From a bacterium (GTDB lineage Bacteria; Bdellovibrionota_C; UBA2361; SZUA-149; JAEUWB01), in NCBI GenBank assembly GCA_016786595.1, contig JAEUWB010000060.1:186001-250000 (forward strand): a DNA stretch of 64,000 bases. The letters run 5' to 3'. Within the stretch, counting starts at the first letter, position 1; each line of letters begins with the position of its first letter. Of the stretch, positions 391 to 21,887 are shown in pieces. Both the position numbers and the translations under genes were made by a program. The notes beneath the pieces are model-generated. The model did not search any database and was not told the DNA's origin. It worked only from the letters and a program-made list of their open reading frames with translations.

Positions 391-1533
391 CTAACTAATA
401 CAGACTTCTCGATACTCTTTGAAATTCTCAAGCACAGCACCAGCTCCACGCACAATTGCAGTCAGTGGATTTGCAGCTCGGAAAAATTTCAATCCCGTCT
501 CAAGGCTAAGGCGCTCAGGAAGTCCGGCAAGTAGGGCTCCGCCACCTGCAATATAAACCCCGCGTTTAAGTATATCTTCACAAAATTCAGGACTAGTTCG
601 TTCTAACCCCCGCACCACTGCGTCGATAATGGCGCTGAGGGGTTCTTGTAAGGCTTTACGTACAGTTGAGTCATCAATAATAAGCTCCCGCGGACAGCCT
701 GTCGCTAAGTCGCGCCCAAAAATTTTGATTTCGCGCGGATGAGTCATCGGCATGGCTGATCCAATTGCGAGTTTCACACGCTCAGCCTCGAAAATTCCAA
801 CATGCATATTAAATGCTTTACGGATGAATGTCTCAATTGCCTCATCCATTTCATCGCCAGCAACTCTAACGCTTTCTGAATAAGCTGTGGCGCCGAGGCT
901 AATGACCGCGACTTCAGTCGTGCCGCCGCCAATGTCAATAACCATACTCGCACCAGGCTGGTTGATCGGTAGTCCGCAACCAATCGCCGCAGCCATGGGC
1001 TCCTCGACAAGATGCACATGCCTGGCTCCGCTAGAAATTGCTGCGTCGACAACAGCTCTTTTCTCAACCATGGTGATGCCAGTTGGAACACTCACAATTA
1101 GGCGTGGACGTCTGAGCTGCCAACGCTTAGAGACTGCTGTCAAAAAACTTTTAATCATTAAATGGGTCATTTCAAAGTCGGCGATAACACCGTCTTTAAG
1201 TGGGCGTACGCAGCGGACGTTGCGAGAAGTTTTGCCATACATTTCTTTGGCTTTTTTGCCGACAGCAACGACGCGGCCATCATCTTCGCGTACTGCGACA
1301 ACACTCGGTTCATCCAGCACAACACCTTGTCCGCGGATATAGATTAAGGTGTTGGCAGTCCCCAGGTCCATCGCCATGTCTTGAGCAAAAAAACCGGAGA
1401 GAAATCCCTTCCAAGATTGTTGTGGGGGAGGTTCAGGTAAGTTTCTTTCGCGTACAAGATCATGCTGGACGATCCCAGAATTAATATCAATTTCAAATTC
1501 GGGGAGGACGCCTTCAGTTCCAACTGAAATCAT
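391..1533 (-). CDS. mreB: Rod-shape protein MreB (actin homologue)
   Basis: This is bacterial actin, which polymerises under the inner membrane and guides side-wall peptidoglycan synthesis. The phosphate-1 loop AMDLGTANTLIY, the connecting region, the phosphate-2 motif MVIDIGGGTTEVAVIS and the adenosine motif AGGGALLAGLPE are all present in order. The ATG at 1533 has GGAG nine bases upstream, so I prefer it over the TTG at 1548. Even so, about 50 residues precede the first actin motif, against roughly 10-12 in typical MreB, so there is an N-terminal extension containing a PEPPPQQ stretch. The start overlaps the end of the upstream GAF gene by 20 bases, which implies coupled translation. No mreC or mreD follows in the window. 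Confidence 0.95.
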   Translation of the reverse strand: MISVGTEGVLPEFEIDINSGIVQHDLVRERNLPEPPPQQSWKGFLSGFFAQDMAMDLGTANTLIYIRGQGVVLDEPSVVAVREDDGRVVAVGKKAKEMYGKTSRNVRCVRPLKDGVIADFEMTHLMIKSFLTAVSKRWQLRRPRLIVSVPTGITMVEKRAVVDAAISSGARHVHLVEEPMAAAIGCGLPINQPGASMVIDIGGGTTEVAVISLGATAYSESVRVAGDEMDEAIETFIRKAFNMHVGIFEAERVKLAIGSAMPMTHPREIKIFGRDLATGCPRELIIDDSTVRKALQEPLSAIIDAVVRGLERTSPEFCEDILKRGVYIAGGGALLAGLPERLSLETGLKFFRAANPLTAIVRGAGAVLENFKEYREVCIS

Positions 1534-3037
1534 TTGACTTATCTCCAATACTGCTGACTTCTGAATATTTTTGCGTTGAATTTTCGAGCGACTTAGCTTG
1601 AATTGTTAAAAGCGTTTCTTTGATTAAGCCCCGAATGGATGCTTTAATTTCGGGGCTAGTTTCAACCTTAATAATCGAAATCCCCTCTAGTAACATTTCG
1701 CCGATGCGCTGAATATCGCTCGATTTTGCGAGATTAGTCGGGTCGTCGAGGCGCACGGTTTTGAGGGTTACGCGTAGGCGGCTAAGGAAATGATTTACAT
1801 GAGCTGTTTCTGCAAGCACTAAGATCTGGCTACCGTAGAGGCCGGTGATTAATGAGCTTTGTCGACGCAACTGCTCTGTGAGTCGTAAAACTTTGTCAAA
1901 AACTAAACTCGAAGTATCGATACCAAAAGCGCGTTCGAGATCAAGAAAATTATTAAAGCAGATACGAATTAGCGTGCGGGGCTGGGTTTGCTTTAATAGC
2001 TGATCTGCTTCAGTCGCAAAGAGCCGCCAGGATAAAAGCCCAGCCTCGCTTTTCAGTAGCTGCGCTCGTTCGCGCAAGCGAATCAGCTCAATTTGTTTTC
2101 CCAGTTCAGCAGTGATGCGTTCTAGCGCGGTCACGCTTGGAGCGTTGAAAACTTGCTGCGGGTTACCGAGAACATTGAGCGAGCCTGCTTCCTTGCCGAG
2201 CACATGGAAGGGGATCGAAAGAAATGAGCGCTGCGAAGTATCGTCATTGGGAAGAGTTTGGACGGTGCGATCGGAGCAAATAATTTTTTTATGCTTGCAA
2301 ACTAGGTCAAGCAAGCGATGCTGTAAATTATCAGTCGAAGAAGTCGAATAGAAAATTCCATCACCAACGCCATCGGCCGCAGTCACCATGGCAACAATTG
2401 CTGCGGGATCAACAATTTCCGCAGGCACATTAATCGCATGGGATAAGAGCATGCGCTCGTCTTCGAAATTTCGGATTTCCTCGATGAAACTTGGTAGTGT
2501 CTCGTTAGGAATATCTTCAATCTGAGTTTTAACTTGTAAGTTCAAACGAATCAGTGCGCGAACTTGTTCGGAGCAGTCGGCTAATAATTTTTCTACAATT
2601 TTAGGGAAAGCGTAAGTCTTTTTACTGTCGCAGGTAATCACGCCCAGAACATTTTTGTCGTTGTCGAGTATGGGCAGAGCTAAAAAACTCTTCAGTGATT
2701 GATCCTCGCGGTAACAAAGTAAGGTGCGTGCATCGTGTTCAAATGGAGAGACCTGCACACGCACGGAGTTTGCTGCAGTCCAGCCGATTAAGCCCGAACC
2801 ATACTTTATTTCTGCATCTGTAATAAATTCACGGCTGAGCGAATGAAACCCGCCAACTACTAGCGAATTTCGTTCTGGATGCTTGAGAAAAATCGCCGCT
2901 GTGTATGCTTCTGTAGCGTTGGCAATTAAACGCGCAAGATTTGAGAGGTCAGACCCTAGCCCGGTTGAAACAGGGGATTCAACCAAATGATCTGTGGAAA
3001 GGTAAAATACGTCTTCGGATTTATTGATTTGTTCCAT
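1514..3037 (-). CDS. GAF-domain protein with degenerate GGDEF-like C-terminus
   Basis: This 507-residue soluble protein has a GAF-type sensory fold at about residues 30-165 (GLIGWTAANS, LALPILDNDKNVLGVITCDS) and probably a second, weaker one at about 200-320. Residues 335-470 have the layout of a diguanylate cyclase domain (GLLSWRLFATEADQLL, then FNNFLDLERAFG). Where GGDEF is expected the sequence reads LYGSQ, so cyclase activity should be lost. It has no membrane segment. It lies directly upstream of mreB and overlaps it by 20 bases, suggesting a shared transcript and possibly a role in shape or growth control. The GAF call is reasonably sure, and the GGDEF relation is my inference from layout. 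Confidence 0.7.
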   Translation of the reverse strand: MEQINKSEDVFYLSTDHLVESPVSTGLGSDLSNLARLIANATEAYTAAIFLKHPERNSLVVGGFHSLSREFITDAEIKYGSGLIGWTAANSVRVQVSPFEHDARTLLCYREDQSLKSFLALPILDNDKNVLGVITCDSKKTYAFPKIVEKLLADCSEQVRALIRLNLQVKTQIEDIPNETLPSFIEEIRNFEDERMLLSHAINVPAEIVDPAAIVAMVTAADGVGDGIFYSTSSTDNLQHRLLDLVCKHKKIICSDRTVQTLPNDDTSQRSFLSIPFHVLGKEAGSLNVLGNPQQVFNAPSVTALERITAELGKQIELIRLRERAQLLKSEAGLLSWRLFATEADQLLKQTQPRTLIRICFNNFLDLERAFGIDTSSLVFDKVLRLTEQLRRQSSLITGLYGSQILVLAETAHVNHFLSRLRVTLKTVRLDDPTNLAKSSDIQRIGEMLLEGISIIKVETSPEIKASIRGLIKETLLTIQAKSLENSTQKYSEVSSIGDKSNDFSWN

Positions 3038-3159
3038 CGAGTGTTTTTGCTAATGCTAACAATAAGTTAAGTCTGAACTACAACTCAGTTAAACTAGCAT
3101 CTAGGACAAGAAATCACAAGACTATAAATCTCGAGAGATTTAGTTTCGCGACAGATCCT

Positions 3160-15296: not shown

Positions 15297-17810
15297 CTAA
15301 TAAATTTCAATTGACCGAACAACTGTTTGACGCTGCGTGCCAGGATTTCCTGTGGTCACGATTGCCCTTAGCCACCGGGTGCAGTTGGGCATGACTGCCC
15401 GTACAATCACGCTAAACTCATTACTGGTTGTTTTAATGTGCTGACGTAACTGAGAGTCCCCCTGTAGTAATAAGCTTAATAAGCCATCGTTAATTGGTAA
15501 ACTCAAGCGCTTCTGCACTAGGTCAACTACTTCTGTTTCAGGAAATCCAAGTGCAATCAGCACTTCTAGCGGAGCAGTATTAATATTCACTCGACGTGAG
15601 CCAACCCCACTTGAAGTTGAAACCTTAACATTTTGCGCAACACGGGAAATGCGCTCCTTGGTCATGCCGGGAACGAGCAAAAGATCGCTAATTGTTTTGA
15701 GGGGGCGATTGAAAAATAGATTTTGCTGCTCAGACTCGATGCCTTTACCAGTAAAGGCCGTGCTCTGATAGGACTCTTTGTTTGCGTCGATCCAATCCTG
15801 GATCACCGCTACTTGATTGCTCGGTGAGAAACCAACATTGCCGGGCACGCGCTTTAATTCTGGATCGTAGCGCTCCTGAATAAATCCTGACCGTTTAAAT
15901 AATTCTGCAGTAGCATTTTTCCAAAATAGGGCGTTGGTGTTTTGTGGAGGTGGCTGAGCATCTTCTCCCTCGTCAGTGTCTTGATCCTCGCCGTCTTGAT
16001 CAGCATCTTTCGGCTTTTGATCAAAAGGATTTGGCGAGGCAGGAACAACTTGATCTTCGTGTAAGCTATTCAGATCGATCTTGCCATCTTCATCGATAAT
16101 ACTTAAACGGAGCTCGCCTGCTACGCCAGAAATTGGTAGCGATTTCTCACTTGAAATTAATGCCCAAGGCTCTCCCAGCCAATCTTCTTGAATACCTTCA
16201 AGCTTGGGCATTTCAATTAATACCCGTGCAAGATTTAAGGCGGACTTTAATGAGTATTCGGCTTGAATCGTTTCTTGGTAACTACGCAATGCTCGCGCAT
16301 CGAAACGAGCAATATAGCCAAAATCAACGACAATCACAGTGGCCAAAGTGATGATAAAAATTGTTAAGAGTAAAGCAATGCCACTTTGATTGCTTAAGCT
16401 CGAATGCCTAACCGTAAGGGGTTTAGTTGTAGGTAATTCATTTAAATTACAATCATGGGTAGACAGTTCATTTTCATCAAGAAACTCTGCTAAGCGACTG
16501 AGTGCCCGCTTTGATGTATTGGTTCTACGCTCGTCTTTGCTTCTACTTTTTTCTGTAAAATAGCTAGGCATTAGTCCAAAAGAAATATTCATGGGCTGGA
16601 AGTCTTTGCGCTGCGGGTCGCTAATATACTGCATTAAGGCGCCGATTGCAGTCTCAACTGGAAATGTAATTGGCGCGTTGCCAGCAACTACTCGGGCAGC
16701 ATTAATTCCCGCAACTAATCCGCCGGCTGTTGATTCTACATAGCCTTCAACTCCAGTGATTTGACCTGCAAAGAAAAGTCCTTGATGGTTACGCATTTCT
16801 AAAGTTGCGCTCAGGCACGTTGGTGAATTAAGAAATGTATTACGGTGGACTGTTCCTAAGCGAATAAACTCAGCCTGCTCAAGGCCGGGCAAGCTGCGGA
16901 AAATTCGCTGCTGCTCACCATGTCGCAGCCGTGTCTGAAAGCCAACAATGCTCCACAATTCGCCTGCCTGATCATCTTGCCGTAATTGGACTACGGCGTA
17001 GGGCCAGCGCCCGGTCTGGGGGTCTGTTAACCCGGTCGGTTTCATTGGGCCAAAACGCAGAGTTTCAGGTCCACGCGCGATCATTTCTTCAATCGGCATG
17101 CAGCCTTCAAAGGGACGTAGATTAGACACGTCATCAGCTTCAACTTCTTCATGTCCTCCAAACTTTTCGCCAGCGGCAACGGCGCTTACAAATTCAGTAT
17201 ATTGTTCGAGAGTTAAAGGGATGTTCCAGTAGTCATCTCCACCTCCTTTGCCATAACGTGAAGCGCGGAAAAGTTTCCCGAAATCAATTGATTCAGCTAG
17301 AAGAATTGGACTAATCGCATCAAAAAAAGCCAGCTGACTCTGACCAGTTAGGTTTTGGATTTGTTCAGAGAGTTTCTTACTTGTCAGCGGTCCAGTGGCG
17401 ATAATCACCGGTGATGTTTGGGTATAACTAGGAATTGTGATTTGTTCAGCGGTTTGAAAATCAATTAAGGGGTGACTGCGGATTTTATGATCGATATAAG
17501 CACTAAAAATTTCTCGGTCTACCGCAAGTGCCCCGCCAGCGGGGACTTCAGCGTAAAGCGCTGCTTCAATGACCAAAGAGCCAGCGACTCGTAATTCGGC
17601 TTTTAAGAGCCCAACTGCATTTGTCAACGCCCGCCCGCGAAAGGAATTTGAACAAACTAGTTCAGCACATTTGCCAGTTTTATGAGCCTTTGTTGTCTGC
17701 AGCGGACGCATTTCAATCAGCTTGACTGGGTGACCAGCTTGAGCAATTTGCCAGGCTGCCTCACTTCCCGCTAACCCTGCGCCGATAATTGTAACACATT
17801 GTTTTTTCAT
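15297..17810 (-). CDS. trmFO-gspK: TrmFO-GspK fusion protein
   Basis: One 837-codon frame covers two normally unrelated proteins. Residues 1 to about 445 are TrmFO, the folate- and FAD-dependent enzyme methylating U54 of tRNA: dinucleotide motif IIGAGLAGSEAAWQIA, then GKCAELVCSNSFRG, GALAVDREIFS and FFAGQITGVEGYVESTAGG. After a 30-residue polar linker, SG followed by IALLLTIFIITLATVIVV starts GspK, the minor pseudopilin at the tip of the type II secretion pseudopilus (cleavage predicted after G477). The GspK part has the SAM-like repeats (NINTAPLEVLIALG) and normal length. I find no ATG, GTG or TTG between the two parts in frame, so GspK seems translated only as a fusion. Confidence 0.88.
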   Translation of the reverse strand: MKKQCVTIIGAGLAGSEAAWQIAQAGHPVKLIEMRPLQTTKAHKTGKCAELVCSNSFRGRALTNAVGLLKAELRVAGSLVIEAALYAEVPAGGALAVDREIFSAYIDHKIRSHPLIDFQTAEQITIPSYTQTSPVIIATGPLTSKKLSEQIQNLTGQSQLAFFDAISPILLAESIDFGKLFRASRYGKGGGDDYWNIPLTLEQYTEFVSAVAAGEKFGGHEEVEADDVSNLRPFEGCMPIEEMIARGPETLRFGPMKPTGLTDPQTGRWPYAVVQLRQDDQAGELWSIVGFQTRLRHGEQQRIFRSLPGLEQAEFIRLGTVHRNTFLNSPTCLSATLEMRNHQGLFFAGQITGVEGYVESTAGGLVAGINAARVVAGNAPITFPVETAIGALMQYISDPQRKDFQPMNISFGLMPSYFTEKSRSKDERRTNTSKRALSRLAEFLDENELSTHDCNLNELPTTKPLTVRHSSLSNQSGIALLLTIFIITLATVIVVDFGYIARFDARALRSYQETIQAEYSLKSALNLARVLIEMPKLEGIQEDWLGEPWALISSEKSLPISGVAGELRLSIIDEDGKIDLNSLHEDQVVPASPNPFDQKPKDADQDGEDQDTDEGEDAQPPPQNTNALFWKNATAELFKRSGFIQERYDPELKRVPGNVGFSPSNQVAVIQDWIDANKESYQSTAFTGKGIESEQQNLFFNRPLKTISDLLLVPGMTKERISRVAQNVKVSTSSGVGSRRVNINTAPLEVLIALGFPETEVVDLVQKRLSLPINDGLLSLLLQGDSQLRQHIKTTSNEFSVIVRAVMPNCTRWLRAIVTTGNPGTQRQTVVRSIEIY

Positions 17811-19176: not shown

Positions 19177-20730
19177 ATGTTAACCGTTATTGACCGTTCG
19201 CAACCAAGCAGTTCAATCCCCGAAGCCTATGATCGGACGTTAAGATTGCAACTTGATTTACTGGAAGAGAAAGCAGCTAATCGTGGACTTGAAGATTATT
19301 TAATCTATGTCGAGCATGACCATGTTTATACGACTGGAAGAGGCACAGAACTTGTTGTGGCAGGTCAAACTCAAGTTCCAACAATTGAAATTAGTCGCGG
19401 AGGGCAGGCGACCTATCATGGGCCAGGACAACTTGTTGCCTATCCAATTTTTGATTTAAATCGACACGGACGTGATGTGCATGTCTATTTGCGTCGACTA
19501 GAGACTGTCGTGATTAATTTACTCAGCCAGCTTGGACTAACTGCCCAGCAAGTTGCTGGGCAAACAGGTGTTTGGGTTGAAACTGCTCAGGGCCTTAGAA
19601 AAATCTGCTCGATTGGAGTTGGCGTTCGCAAGTGGATTACTTATCACGGACTGGCTTTGAATGTTAATCCAGATCTTTCATATTTTCATTCAATTTCGCC
19701 GTGTGGACTAGCAGCTGGAGTAATGACCTCACTTGCTGAGTTACTCGGCAGCGCGTGTCCGAGCATGGATCAAGTTAAAAACTTAATGACGGAAGCTTTT
19801 AAGTCAGAGTTTGATTTTTCTCACGATCACACTAATCCACTCAATCGACCTGCTTGGATTAAAGTCAAGGCCCCGGGTTCTCAAGGCTACGGGGAAACAG
19901 ATCAAGTTGTAAAAAACTTACGCCTCGTAACTGTTTGTGAAGAGGCGCAGTGTCCAAATATTGGTGAATGTTGGACGCATCATACCGCGACATTTATGAT
20001 CATGGGCGAGCTGTGCACACGGCGCTGTAGCTTTTGCTCTGTGAAGGACGGTGTTAAGGCCAACCTAGACCCGCTAGATCCACTTGAGCCCTATCGTGTG
20101 GCTAAGGCAGTGCAAGAATTAGGACTTGAGCATGTCGTGGTTACATCAGTTAATCGTGATGATGTTGCCGACATGGGAGCAAGTCACTTCTATCAAACTG
20201 CTAAATTGCTTCATCAACATGTTCCAGCTTGCCGGATCGAGTTTCTCATCCCCGATATGCAGGGACGTCGCGAGTTAATAGAAATTATTTTGAAAGATAA
20301 TTTGCTTAGCGTGTTAAATCATAATTTTGAAACTGTACCACGCTTATACCGCACAGTTCGCCCCGGAGCCCAGGTGCAGCGGTCATTAAACATCCTCAAG
20401 TGGGCTAAGGAAATTCAGCCAGAAGTTAAAACGAAATCTGGAATTATGCTTGGCTTAGGTGAGACGCGACAAGAAGTTTTAGAAGTAATGGATCTACTGA
20501 GATCTGTGGGATGCGATATTTTAACGATTGGTCAGTATCTGCGGCCCTCGCAAAAACAACTACCAGTTCAGCGCTTTGTCACGCCTGTTGAATTTAAAGA
20601 TTATGCTGAAGAAGCTTATCTGCGGGGTTTTGCACATGTAGAATCAGGCACATTTGTGCGTAGTTCTTACCACGCCTGGAAGCATGCTGATGGCGCAGAG
20701 GAAGCGCTACGATCAGCGGCACAGGCTTAA
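19177..20730 (+). CDS. lipB-lipA: LipB-LipA fusion: octanoyltransferase plus lipoyl synthase
   Basis: A 517-residue fusion of the two steps of lipoate biosynthesis. Residues 1 to about 215 are LipB, moving octanoate from acyl carrier protein to target lysines: SRGGQATYHGPGQL, with the catalytic pair K142 (RKICSIG) and C176 (SISPCGL). Residues from about 225 are the radical-SAM lipoyl synthase LipA: auxiliary cluster cysteines C254, C259, C265 and the SAM cluster C280-x3-C284-x2-C287. All catalytic residues are kept, so both halves should work. It is five bases after the E2 gene whose lipoyl domain is the natural substrate, suggesting direct coupling of cofactor and apoprotein production. Confidence 0.94.
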   Translation: MLTVIDRSQPSSSIPEAYDRTLRLQLDLLEEKAANRGLEDYLIYVEHDHVYTTGRGTELVVAGQTQVPTIEISRGGQATYHGPGQLVAYPIFDLNRHGRDVHVYLRRLETVVINLLSQLGLTAQQVAGQTGVWVETAQGLRKICSIGVGVRKWITYHGLALNVNPDLSYFHSISPCGLAAGVMTSLAELLGSACPSMDQVKNLMTEAFKSEFDFSHDHTNPLNRPAWIKVKAPGSQGYGETDQVVKNLRLVTVCEEAQCPNIGECWTHHTATFMIMGELCTRRCSFCSVKDGVKANLDPLDPLEPYRVAKAVQELGLEHVVVTSVNRDDVADMGASHFYQTAKLLHQHVPACRIEFLIPDMQGRRELIEIILKDNLLSVLNHNFETVPRLYRTVRPGAQVQRSLNILKWAKEIQPEVKTKSGIMLGLGETRQEVLEVMDLLRSVGCDILTIGQYLRPSQKQLPVQRFVTPVEFKDYAEEAYLRGFAHVESGTFVRSSYHAWKHADGAEEALRSAAQA

Positions 20731-20886: not shown

Positions 20887-20915
20887 TTGACTTGGGACAA
20901 TCGCGCTGTTACAAT
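20887..20915 (+). promoter_or_regulatory. Sigma70-type promoter for leader peptide and hydroxylase
   Basis: TTGACT (20887-20892), exactly 17 bases, then TACAAT (20910-20915). This is the best consensus promoter I found in the window. An A-rich stretch lies just upstream. The expected start of transcription is about 20922, one base before the ATG of the leader ORF, so the RNA may be leaderless. Confidence 0.75.
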
Positions 20916-20922
20916 TATTTCT

Positions 20923-20982
20923 ATGCATTGTCAGACGAATTCATATCGCTACGCATATCTATACCCACTTTCGTGGGTTTAA
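20923..20982 (+). CDS. Tyrosine-rich leader peptide (putative attenuator peptide)
   Basis: A 19-codon ORF reads MHCQTNSYRYAYLYPLSWV. Codons 8, 10, 12 and 14 are tyrosine (TAT, TAC, TAT, TAC) and codon 18 is tryptophan. It lies between a strong promoter and a terminator-like hairpin, upstream of the enzyme family that converts phenylalanine to tyrosine. The last tyrosine codon (20962-20964) touches the 5' arm of the hairpin (20963-20968). A ribosome halted for lack of Tyr-tRNA would therefore cover that arm and stop the hairpin forming. No Shine-Dalgarno is present; the ATG sits at the predicted transcript start. Function is inferred from arrangement; the ORF itself is directly visible. Confidence 0.65.
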   Translation: MHCQTNSYRYAYLYPLSWV

Positions 20983-20994
20983 TTATTCTTTTCT
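20963..20994 (+). terminator. Terminator-like hairpin in the hydroxylase leader
   Basis: ACCCAC (20963-20968), loop TTTC, GTGGGT (20973-20978), followed by TTAATTATTCTTTTCT. The six-base stem with a T-rich tail fits a weak intrinsic terminator suitable for attenuation. It overlaps the last six codons of the tyrosine-rich leader ORF, and the hydroxylase ATG is about 65 bases further on. Confidence 0.6.
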
Positions 20995-21044
20995 GTAATC
21001 ATTAGTTTTCGTTTTTAAGCAATTTTTTGAAGGATTTAACCTAG

Positions 21045-21887
21045 ATGGACTCGTTTATTGAAATGGACGTCATTGACGACCCAACTGAACTCAGTTTAGA
21101 CCCAAAGCACCCAGGTATTAATGACCCAAGCTACGTATTGCGTCGTAAAGCTTTTTTTTACTTAGCCCGCGACTTACGGTTGCAAAACTTATCTGTGCCT
21201 GTTGTTGAATATACTCAAGCCGAGCACCGGCTTTGGTCGACGATTGCGACAAAGCTTGATTTACTGCATCGCAAACACGCTTCTCGCATCTTTCTGGAAG
21301 GTAAGTCTGCCCTGGCTTTTGCCGCTGAAACCATCCCGCAAGCTCGTGACTTAGACCGTCTATTGCAAGACACAACTGGATTCTCGCTTACACCAGCGGA
21401 AGGACTCCTTGCAGGTAAAACGTATTTTATTGGCTGGTCTGAGGGGAAAATGCCGGTGACACTTTTTTTACGTCACCCCAGCCATCCCGAGTATACTCCA
21501 GAGCCAGATATTGTACATGATATTCTCGGCCATGTGCCGCCGTTAATGAATCAAGCATACGCGGACTTGATCGAATTTATTGGCATTGCTGCCAAGCAAG
21601 CTAATCCGCGGCAAATGGAAGAGCTTGTGCGTTTTTATTGGTTCACCGTTGAGTATGGATTGATCAGAGAAGACGATCAAATAAAGTGTTTAGGTGCGGG
21701 GATTCTTTCTTCCTTAGCAGAAATTGAGCATGTCTACTCTGGCATTCCAAATGTGAAAGAATTTAACTTAAACGAGGTAATTAATACTCCATTTGATCCC
21801 ACTCGTTTGCAGCAGTTGTACTTCGTCAGTAATTCCTTAGCGGAAATCAGAGACAATGCAGTCAAATTAGTTGAATCTTGGGGCTAG
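21045..21887 (+). CDS. phhA: Aromatic amino acid hydroxylase (phenylalanine 4-monooxygenase-like)
   Basis: A 280-residue non-haem iron, pterin-dependent hydroxylase. The iron ligands are visible: H158 and H163 in EPDIVHDILGHVPP and E203 in WFTVEYGL. The family signature extends through IKCLGAGILSSLAEIEHV. Bacterial members of this length lack the regulatory ACT domain, as here, and normally make tyrosine from phenylalanine. Tryptophan hydroxylation cannot be excluded from sequence alone. AAGGA precedes the ATG by ten bases. No pterin recycling gene (phhB) is adjacent. The tyrosine-rich leader upstream suggests expression responds to tyrosine supply. Confidence 0.9.
   Translation: MDSFIEMDVIDDPTELSLDPKHPGINDPSYVLRRKAFFYLARDLRLQNLSVPVVEYTQAEHRLWSTIATKLDLLHRKHASRIFLEGKSALAFAAETIPQARDLDRLLQDTTGFSLTPAEGLLAGKTYFIGWSEGKMPVTLFLRHPSHPEYTPEPDIVHDILGHVPPLMNQAYADLIEFIGIAAKQANPRQMEELVRFYWFTVEYGLIREDDQIKCLGAGILSSLAEIEHVYSGIPNVKEFNLNEVINTPFDPTRLQQLYFVSNSLAEIRDNAVKLVESWG

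Follow-up and report, generated by a model that had tools for sequence, protein, structure and literature searches.

Results

Features of the locus

The window, by which we mean the entire 64,000-nucleotide stretch of DNA that was analyzed, contains a hydroxylase gene preceded by a promoter, a short tyrosine-rich open reading frame (ORF), a compact hairpin, and a G-poor untranslated stretch (Table 1). A preliminary description of the locus had listed the promoter, the ORF, the hairpin, and the hydroxylase, and all of them are present letter for letter. The promoter matches the consensus at 10 of 12 positions, in addition to the TG of an extended -10 element. Because the ATG of the ORF lies 7 nt past the -10 element, it is placed where transcription would be expected to begin. 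The 5' end of the transcript is therefore probably the ATG itself, which would make this a leaderless leader, an inference drawn from the sequence alone without a mapped transcription start. The stop codon of the leader, a TAA at 20980, sits just past the hairpin, for which fold prediction gives -8.4 kcal/mol and pair probabilities of 0.89-1.00.

Table 1. Features of the hydroxylase leader region, in window coordinates
Feature	Position	Strand	Remarks
Sigma-70-type promoter, TTGACT-17-TACAAT, TG before -10	20887..20915	+	from sequence
Leader ORF, MHCQTNSYRYAYLYPLSWV then stop	20923..20982	+	19 codons; ATG on expected transcription start
Tyr codons 8, 10, 12, 14	20944-20946, 20950-20952, 20956-20958, 20962-20964	+	putative regulatory codons
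Hairpin with 6 bp and tetraloop, ACCCAC-TTTC-GTGGGT	20963..20978	+	16 nt; 5' arm begins inside Tyr codon 14
Unstructured G-poor, U-rich stretch	20979..21028	+	weak U-tract or Rho-loading region, inferred
Shine-Dalgarno sequence of hydroxylase, AAGGA	21030..21034	+	from sequence
Biopterin-dependent aromatic amino acid hydroxylase, probably phenylalanine 4-hydroxylase	21045..21887	+	putative regulated gene

Taken singly, these elements are unremarkable. Terminator-like sites occur in the window at the frequency found in shuffled sequence, and the hairpin alone is ordinary; promoter-like sites likewise occur at about shuffle rates. The folding energy of the whole leader was no better than that of shuffles (z = -0.5). 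No Rfam family matched the window, either at the gathering score or at an E value of 10, and none matched in 15 related loci, so that a known Rfam leader, T-box, or riboswitch was not recovered at any of them.

Two other genes of the window have unusual architectures. An 837-aa ORF on the reverse strand (15297-17810) joins, in frame, a TrmFO (GIDA) domain to a half resembling GspK-type secretion proteins, which was assigned by eye and has no Pfam match; this ORF could be a real fusion or could reflect a lost stop codon. On the forward strand (19177-20730), a single ORF encodes a fusion of lipoyl transferase (LipB) with lipoyl synthase (LipA).

The hydroxylase as a probable source of tyrosine

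The gene product matches PF00351 with 219 bits, and residues H158, H163, and E203, which we take to be the iron ligands from what is known of human PAH, are invariant in the hydroxylase alignment. The best NCBIfam model is phenylalanine 4-monooxygenase, with a score below the cut-off (234 versus 247). Pathway context favors phenylalanine as the likely substrate, with the activity itself being inferred. As a separate observation, the protein is closer to animal aromatic amino acid hydroxylases (1phz, 181 bits) than to the structure of a bacterial PAH (127 bits).

Prephenate dehydrogenase (tyrA, PF02153) was detected in all 14 control genomes and in 24 of 44 members of the class, and was not found in any of the four genomes with this hydroxylase (G000, which is 97% complete, G045, G038, and G008). 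Prephenate dehydratase is present in three of the four. Because the dehydratase is present and tyrA is missing, phenylalanine synthesis is probable and the only usual route to tyrosine would run through the hydroxylation of phenylalanine. From this gene content, we infer that the hydroxylase is the likely source of tyrosine in the four genomes, which would make tyrosine the end product of the gene that lies behind the tyrosine-rich leader. Some members of the class without this hydroxylase also lack tyrA, and the link between the two genes is therefore suggestive rather than proof. Furthermore, 4-hydroxyphenylpyruvate dioxygenase (HPPD), an enzyme of tyrosine breakdown, is encoded in G000 and G038, so that a degradative use of the hydroxylase is not excluded.

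Conservation of the leader among relatives

Our comparisons were drawn from a class of about 46 genomes, apparently the sole class of its phylum in the genome set. Within it, the hydroxylase has three relatives with 42-54% identity, each from another family. For one of these (L007, in G008), the contig ends 41 nt upstream of the gene, which is too short for leader comparison, leaving just three tyrosine leaders, including that of the window. The preliminary description had proposed that, if the leader were functional, its tyrosine codons and hairpin should be conserved in relatives; when this was checked, both relatives with upstream DNA retained them. In L005, the arrangement is TTGCTT-17-TACCGT-6-ATG, with the ORF MLSFASPTYRSYYPL, tyrosine codons at positions 9, 12, and 13, and the hairpin CCACTC-TAAA-GAGTGG. 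In L006, it is TTGACT-17-TAGCTA-7-ATG, with the ORF MSFITVSAYSYLLYARFGG, tyrosine codons at positions 9, 11, and 14, and the hairpin GCCCGC-TTCG-GTGGGT. All three promoters share the 17-nt spacer and a CTGnTA running into the -10 element, and in all three the ATG lies 6-7 nt past it, a spacing from which a leaderless start is inferred. Each leader has a hairpin of 6 bp with a 4-nt loop, and this hairpin begins 39-42 nt past the first base of the start codon, either right beside the last tyrosine codon or overlapping it. The arm sequences differ: at three of the six pairs, both sides have changed with pairing kept (A-U/C-G/G-U, C-G/A-U/C-G, and A-U/U-A/G-U). These changes were read by eye without a covariance model, since MAFFT did not bring the hairpin and the ATG into register together.

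That an ATG-initiated, tyrosine-rich ORF should carry a hairpin at its last tyrosine codon is not a product of chance. This combination arose in 0 of 5,000 dinucleotide shuffles of each of the three 300-nt upstream regions and, across 605 kb of scanned strand, did not occur outside these three loci. Neighboring genes and genomic positions of the hydroxylase differ among the three genomes, which indicates that the leader travels with the gene and not with a conserved neighborhood. The motif was not found in a second hydroxylase clade with about 33% identity (L008-L024) or in other hydroxylase groups (L002, L003, L025-L029); because these belong to other enzyme clades, its absence there is not counter-evidence. 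A search for the pattern TTGnnTnGG-10-CTGnTA...ATG returned the known leaders and only one further match, L102 in G019.

It could be argued that the peptide product of the leader has a function in trans, as does peTrpL of Sinorhizobium meliloti, a leaderless trp leader peptide for which such functions are known (PMC7298713). We regard this as very unlikely. The three peptides share little beyond their tyrosine codons, with a YPL piece in two of the three, and they differ in length and in their ends.

Sister leaders for tryptophan, phenylalanine, and leucine

The same architecture appears at other amino acid genes of the class. Upstream of 13 trpE genes there is an ORF that ends in tryptophan codons, and in most of these leaders the ATG lies 6-7 nt past a -10 element. 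In their hairpin, typically UGGGC-GUAA-GCCCA, the last tryptophan codon belongs to one arm, the stop codon lies in the loop, and the other arm is complementary. The genome from which the window was taken has its own leaderless tryptophan leader, MIFTSTTFSWRASSVFWG, with the hairpin UUGGGG-CUAAC-CCCCAA, in front of trpA-aroF-trpE (L134, 2254-2310). In G029, a leaderless phenylalanine leader, MKQIDIQTACFFSSFYFGV, with a hairpin and a G-poor stretch, precedes a fused pheA-aroF gene that encodes chorismate mutase-prephenate dehydratase joined to DAHP synthase (L138, gene at 1098-3152 on the reverse strand, leader at 102 of the reverse complement). In G004, a leucine leader, MNRPSITVKSTILALLISLLLAL, precedes leuA (L106). 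A strict scan for the architecture, across the DNA gathered to that point, recovered only tyrosine leaders at the hydroxylase and tryptophan leaders at trpE; looser scans gave some unrelated matches too, as expected. Thus, tyrosine codons are enriched in all three hydroxylase leaders, with tryptophan, phenylalanine, and leucine counterparts at the matching genes, and it is likely that one leader architecture recurs across the class with codons that correspond to the end product. Given this recurrence, the tyrosine leader is very probably a genuine amino acid switch of unusual simplicity.

Short leucine-rich ORFs were also seen upstream of leuA in many members of the class (L105, L108, L109, L114, L123, L125, L127, L128, L130, and L131), mostly without a compact hairpin at the stop codon. 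These may represent a different, perhaps classical, type of attenuator.

The sister leaders bear on a further alternative, namely that the hydroxylase gene is catabolic or constitutive and that its tyrosine-rich ORF arose by chance. In favor of this view are the HPPD genes of G000 and G038, along with the ease with which single elements arise by chance. We consider it very unlikely, as the chance component is refuted by the conservation and shuffle tests, tyrA is missing, and the sister leaders carry codons for the matching end product. Together, the missing tyrA and the sister leaders independently lend strong support to attenuation through end-product codons with no antiterminator involved, the reading that the preliminary description had proposed and that the relatives also support.

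Inferred termination after the hairpin

The nature of the terminator is less certain. The preliminary description had inferred an intrinsic terminator from the hairpin and a T-rich tail, a claim that held only in part. The tail, TTAATTATTCTTTT, is a weak U-tract that relatives do not keep: the first 8 nt past the hairpin contain five T in the window, one in L005, and two in L006, making the window copy the only tyrosine leader with a U-rich tail. More broadly, a U-tract is missing in most of the 19 leaders. The absence of a visible antiterminator, also part of that description, was borne out, since the 3' arm of the hairpin and the RNA beyond it gave folds no more stable than those of shuffles. 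In addition, no second terminator-like site was found in 18 of the 19 leaders, including all of the tyrosine leaders. The criteria for a classical trp-type attenuator, that is, an antiterminator and an intrinsic terminator with a U-tract, are thus not met.

Because the hairpin-plus-U-tract combination is not conserved, termination may be Rho-dependent. Rho loading sites are expected to be poor in G and rich in C. Compared with 187 other upstream regions, the RNA past the hairpin in the leaders has less G (mean, 5.1 versus 11.0; p = 2e-9) and a larger excess of C over G (mean, 9.2 versus 1.0; p = 1e-7). This composition holds for the leader family as a whole and for L006, with C-richness a feature of most leaders and not of all. 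Rho is encoded in G000 (721 bits), as well as in G045, G008, and G029; no full match was found in G038, whose assembly is 84% complete. Across the leader family, we consider Rho-dependent termination somewhat more likely than intrinsic termination.

The Rho reading is weakest at the window copy, where the tail is G-poor and U-rich without being C-rich and where the excess of C over G (+1) is at the 50th percentile of controls. Since its tail is U-rich, the window copy may terminate intrinsically. Plain intrinsic attenuation at 20963-20990, the form that the preliminary description drew, is a special case of our preferred explanation set apart by its terminator type, and we regard it as fairly unlikely. 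It is supported by a GC hairpin of 6 bp followed by five T in eight. Against it are the poor tails of L005, L006, and most other leaders, as well as the chance frequency of terminator-like sites in the window.

Discussion

A model for attenuation by a masking ribosome

Our sequence comparisons show a promoter, a tyrosine-rich ORF, a hairpin, and a G-poor untranslated region, all of which are conserved except for the tail. We interpret these elements as an attenuator that responds to tyrosine and governs a phenylalanine hydroxylase by which the cell makes its tyrosine, and we consider this reading likely, with a probability of roughly 0.72. It is inferred without transcript or ribosome data. 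In the absence of expression data, the leaderless start, the type of termination, and the direction of control, including a rise in expression when charged tRNA is scarce, are inferences as well.

A model in which the ribosome footprint masks the RNA is informative about where stalling would matter. With codon 12 or 14 of the window leader in the A site, the hairpin is removed, while ribosomes stalled at codons 8 and 10 leave it intact. Of the ribosome pausing at codons 8-14 that the preliminary description anticipated, only stalls at codons 12 and 14 would thus melt the hairpin, which makes that description weaker than stated on this point. In the model, a masking ribosome on the last tyrosine codons removes the hairpin, which begins 39-42 nt past the ATG in all three tyrosine leaders. 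The hairpin of every leader can exist only while a ribosome covers neither the stop codon nor the last of the regulatory codons.

Under the proposed mechanism, transcription would start at the ATG, and a ribosome would load immediately. With charged Tyr-tRNA in supply, this ribosome would translate as far as the stop codon, where the hairpin ends, and then leave, after which the hairpin would close, U/C-rich RNA would be exposed, and transcription would stop before the hydroxylase. When charged Tyr-tRNA is scarce, the ribosome would halt on the last tyrosine codons, covering the 5' arm of the hairpin and the edge of the adjoining RNA. The stalled ribosome would thereby mask the terminator module and allow transcription to proceed into the hydroxylase, with no need for an antiterminator. 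We favor such direct masking because hairpin and ribosome exclude one another, there is no antiterminator, the U-tract is rare, the downstream stretch is G-poor and, in most leaders, C-rich, and Rho is encoded.

The main rival is that the leader controls translation of the hydroxylase or the stability of its mRNA and not termination. There is precedent in the cysteine-responsive leaderless upstream ORFs of mycobacteria, which act on downstream translation (Canestrari et al. 2020, cited in PMC9031893), and the lack of a U-tract in most leaders is compatible with this view. Moreover, in L005, the stretch of tyrosine codons CUACUAUCC could pair, as judged by eye, with the Shine-Dalgarno region of the hydroxylase, GGAUACGUAG. 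Yet neither the window nor L006 shows such pairing, many trpE genes with the same kind of leader have no clear Shine-Dalgarno sequence, and masking of ribosome sites opens the start region in no consistent way. Sequestration of the Shine-Dalgarno sequence is thus plausible in L005 only, and we judge the rival as a whole to be unlikely.

A bolder version of the attenuation model can be formulated, in which the class runs its tyrosine, tryptophan, phenylalanine, and leucine pathways with one minimal device. This device would consist of a leaderless ORF, a single hairpin, and an unadorned Rho site rich in pyrimidines. It would need no antiterminator and no U-tract, and the ribosome alone would exclude Rho. 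The stop codon and the last regulatory codons would all lie within the hairpin or directly beside it, and lineages without prephenate dehydrogenase would carry the device on phenylalanine hydroxylase, the gate of their tyrosine synthesis. We see this generalization as no more apt to hold than to fail.

Relation to known systems

The individual ingredients, that is, leaderless leader peptides, overlap of codons with a terminator hairpin, and a suggested Rho site without a terminator, have all been described. Their combination, its use for four amino acids within one class, and an attenuator with tyrosine codons on a phenylalanine hydroxylase did not turn up in the open-access literature that we searched. 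As far as that literature shows, this would be the first tyrosine-codon attenuator reported for phenylalanine hydroxylase, an enzyme that is usually regarded as catabolic in bacteria. Our findings suggest that, in an uncultured class, several amino acid pathways are under the control of a pared-down attenuator that has no antiterminator, which makes the minimal needs of ribosome-mediated attenuation directly testable.

Attenuators of the Escherichia coli trp, phe, and his type have a leader led by a Shine-Dalgarno sequence, an alternative folding of four segments, and a U-tract terminator. The leaders described here share with them the end-product codons in the leader peptide and, as proposed, the use of a stalled ribosome as sensor. 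Another counterpart is trpL-trpE(G) of S. meliloti (PMC7298713), which has a leaderless ORF, end-product codons, and an aromatic amino acid gene downstream. That system has an alternative terminator and antiterminator, whereas the tyrosine leader has one hairpin on its regulatory codons and no antiterminator; the amino acid (tyrosine) and the target (a hydroxylase) differ as well. In the ilvB leaders of Actinobacteria (PMC1262725), the regulatory codons overlap the hairpin itself, as they do here, but those hairpins are followed by poly-U runs, which most of our leaders lack, and the codons are for isoleucine, valine, and leucine.

The mycobacterial leaders with runs of cysteine codons (PMC1262725; PMC9031893) are similar in having a leaderless ORF, regulatory codons near the stop, and no intrinsic terminator, and a polypyrimidine stretch in them has been suggested as a Rho site (PMC1262725). 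Unlike the tyrosine leader, they have no conserved hairpin, belong to cysteine operons, and are reported to act on downstream translation. In E. coli toiL, stalling on an upstream ORF has been linked to relief of Rho termination via translation of the downstream gene (PMC12121999). Finally, as in E. coli tnaC-tnaA (named in PMC1262725), a ribosome near the stop codon of the leader would block Rho from the adjacent RNA. The tnaC leader detects free tryptophan by means of its nascent peptide, and its role is catabolic; in contrast, the signal for the tyrosine leader would be uncharged tRNA, and the gene under its control would be biosynthetic.
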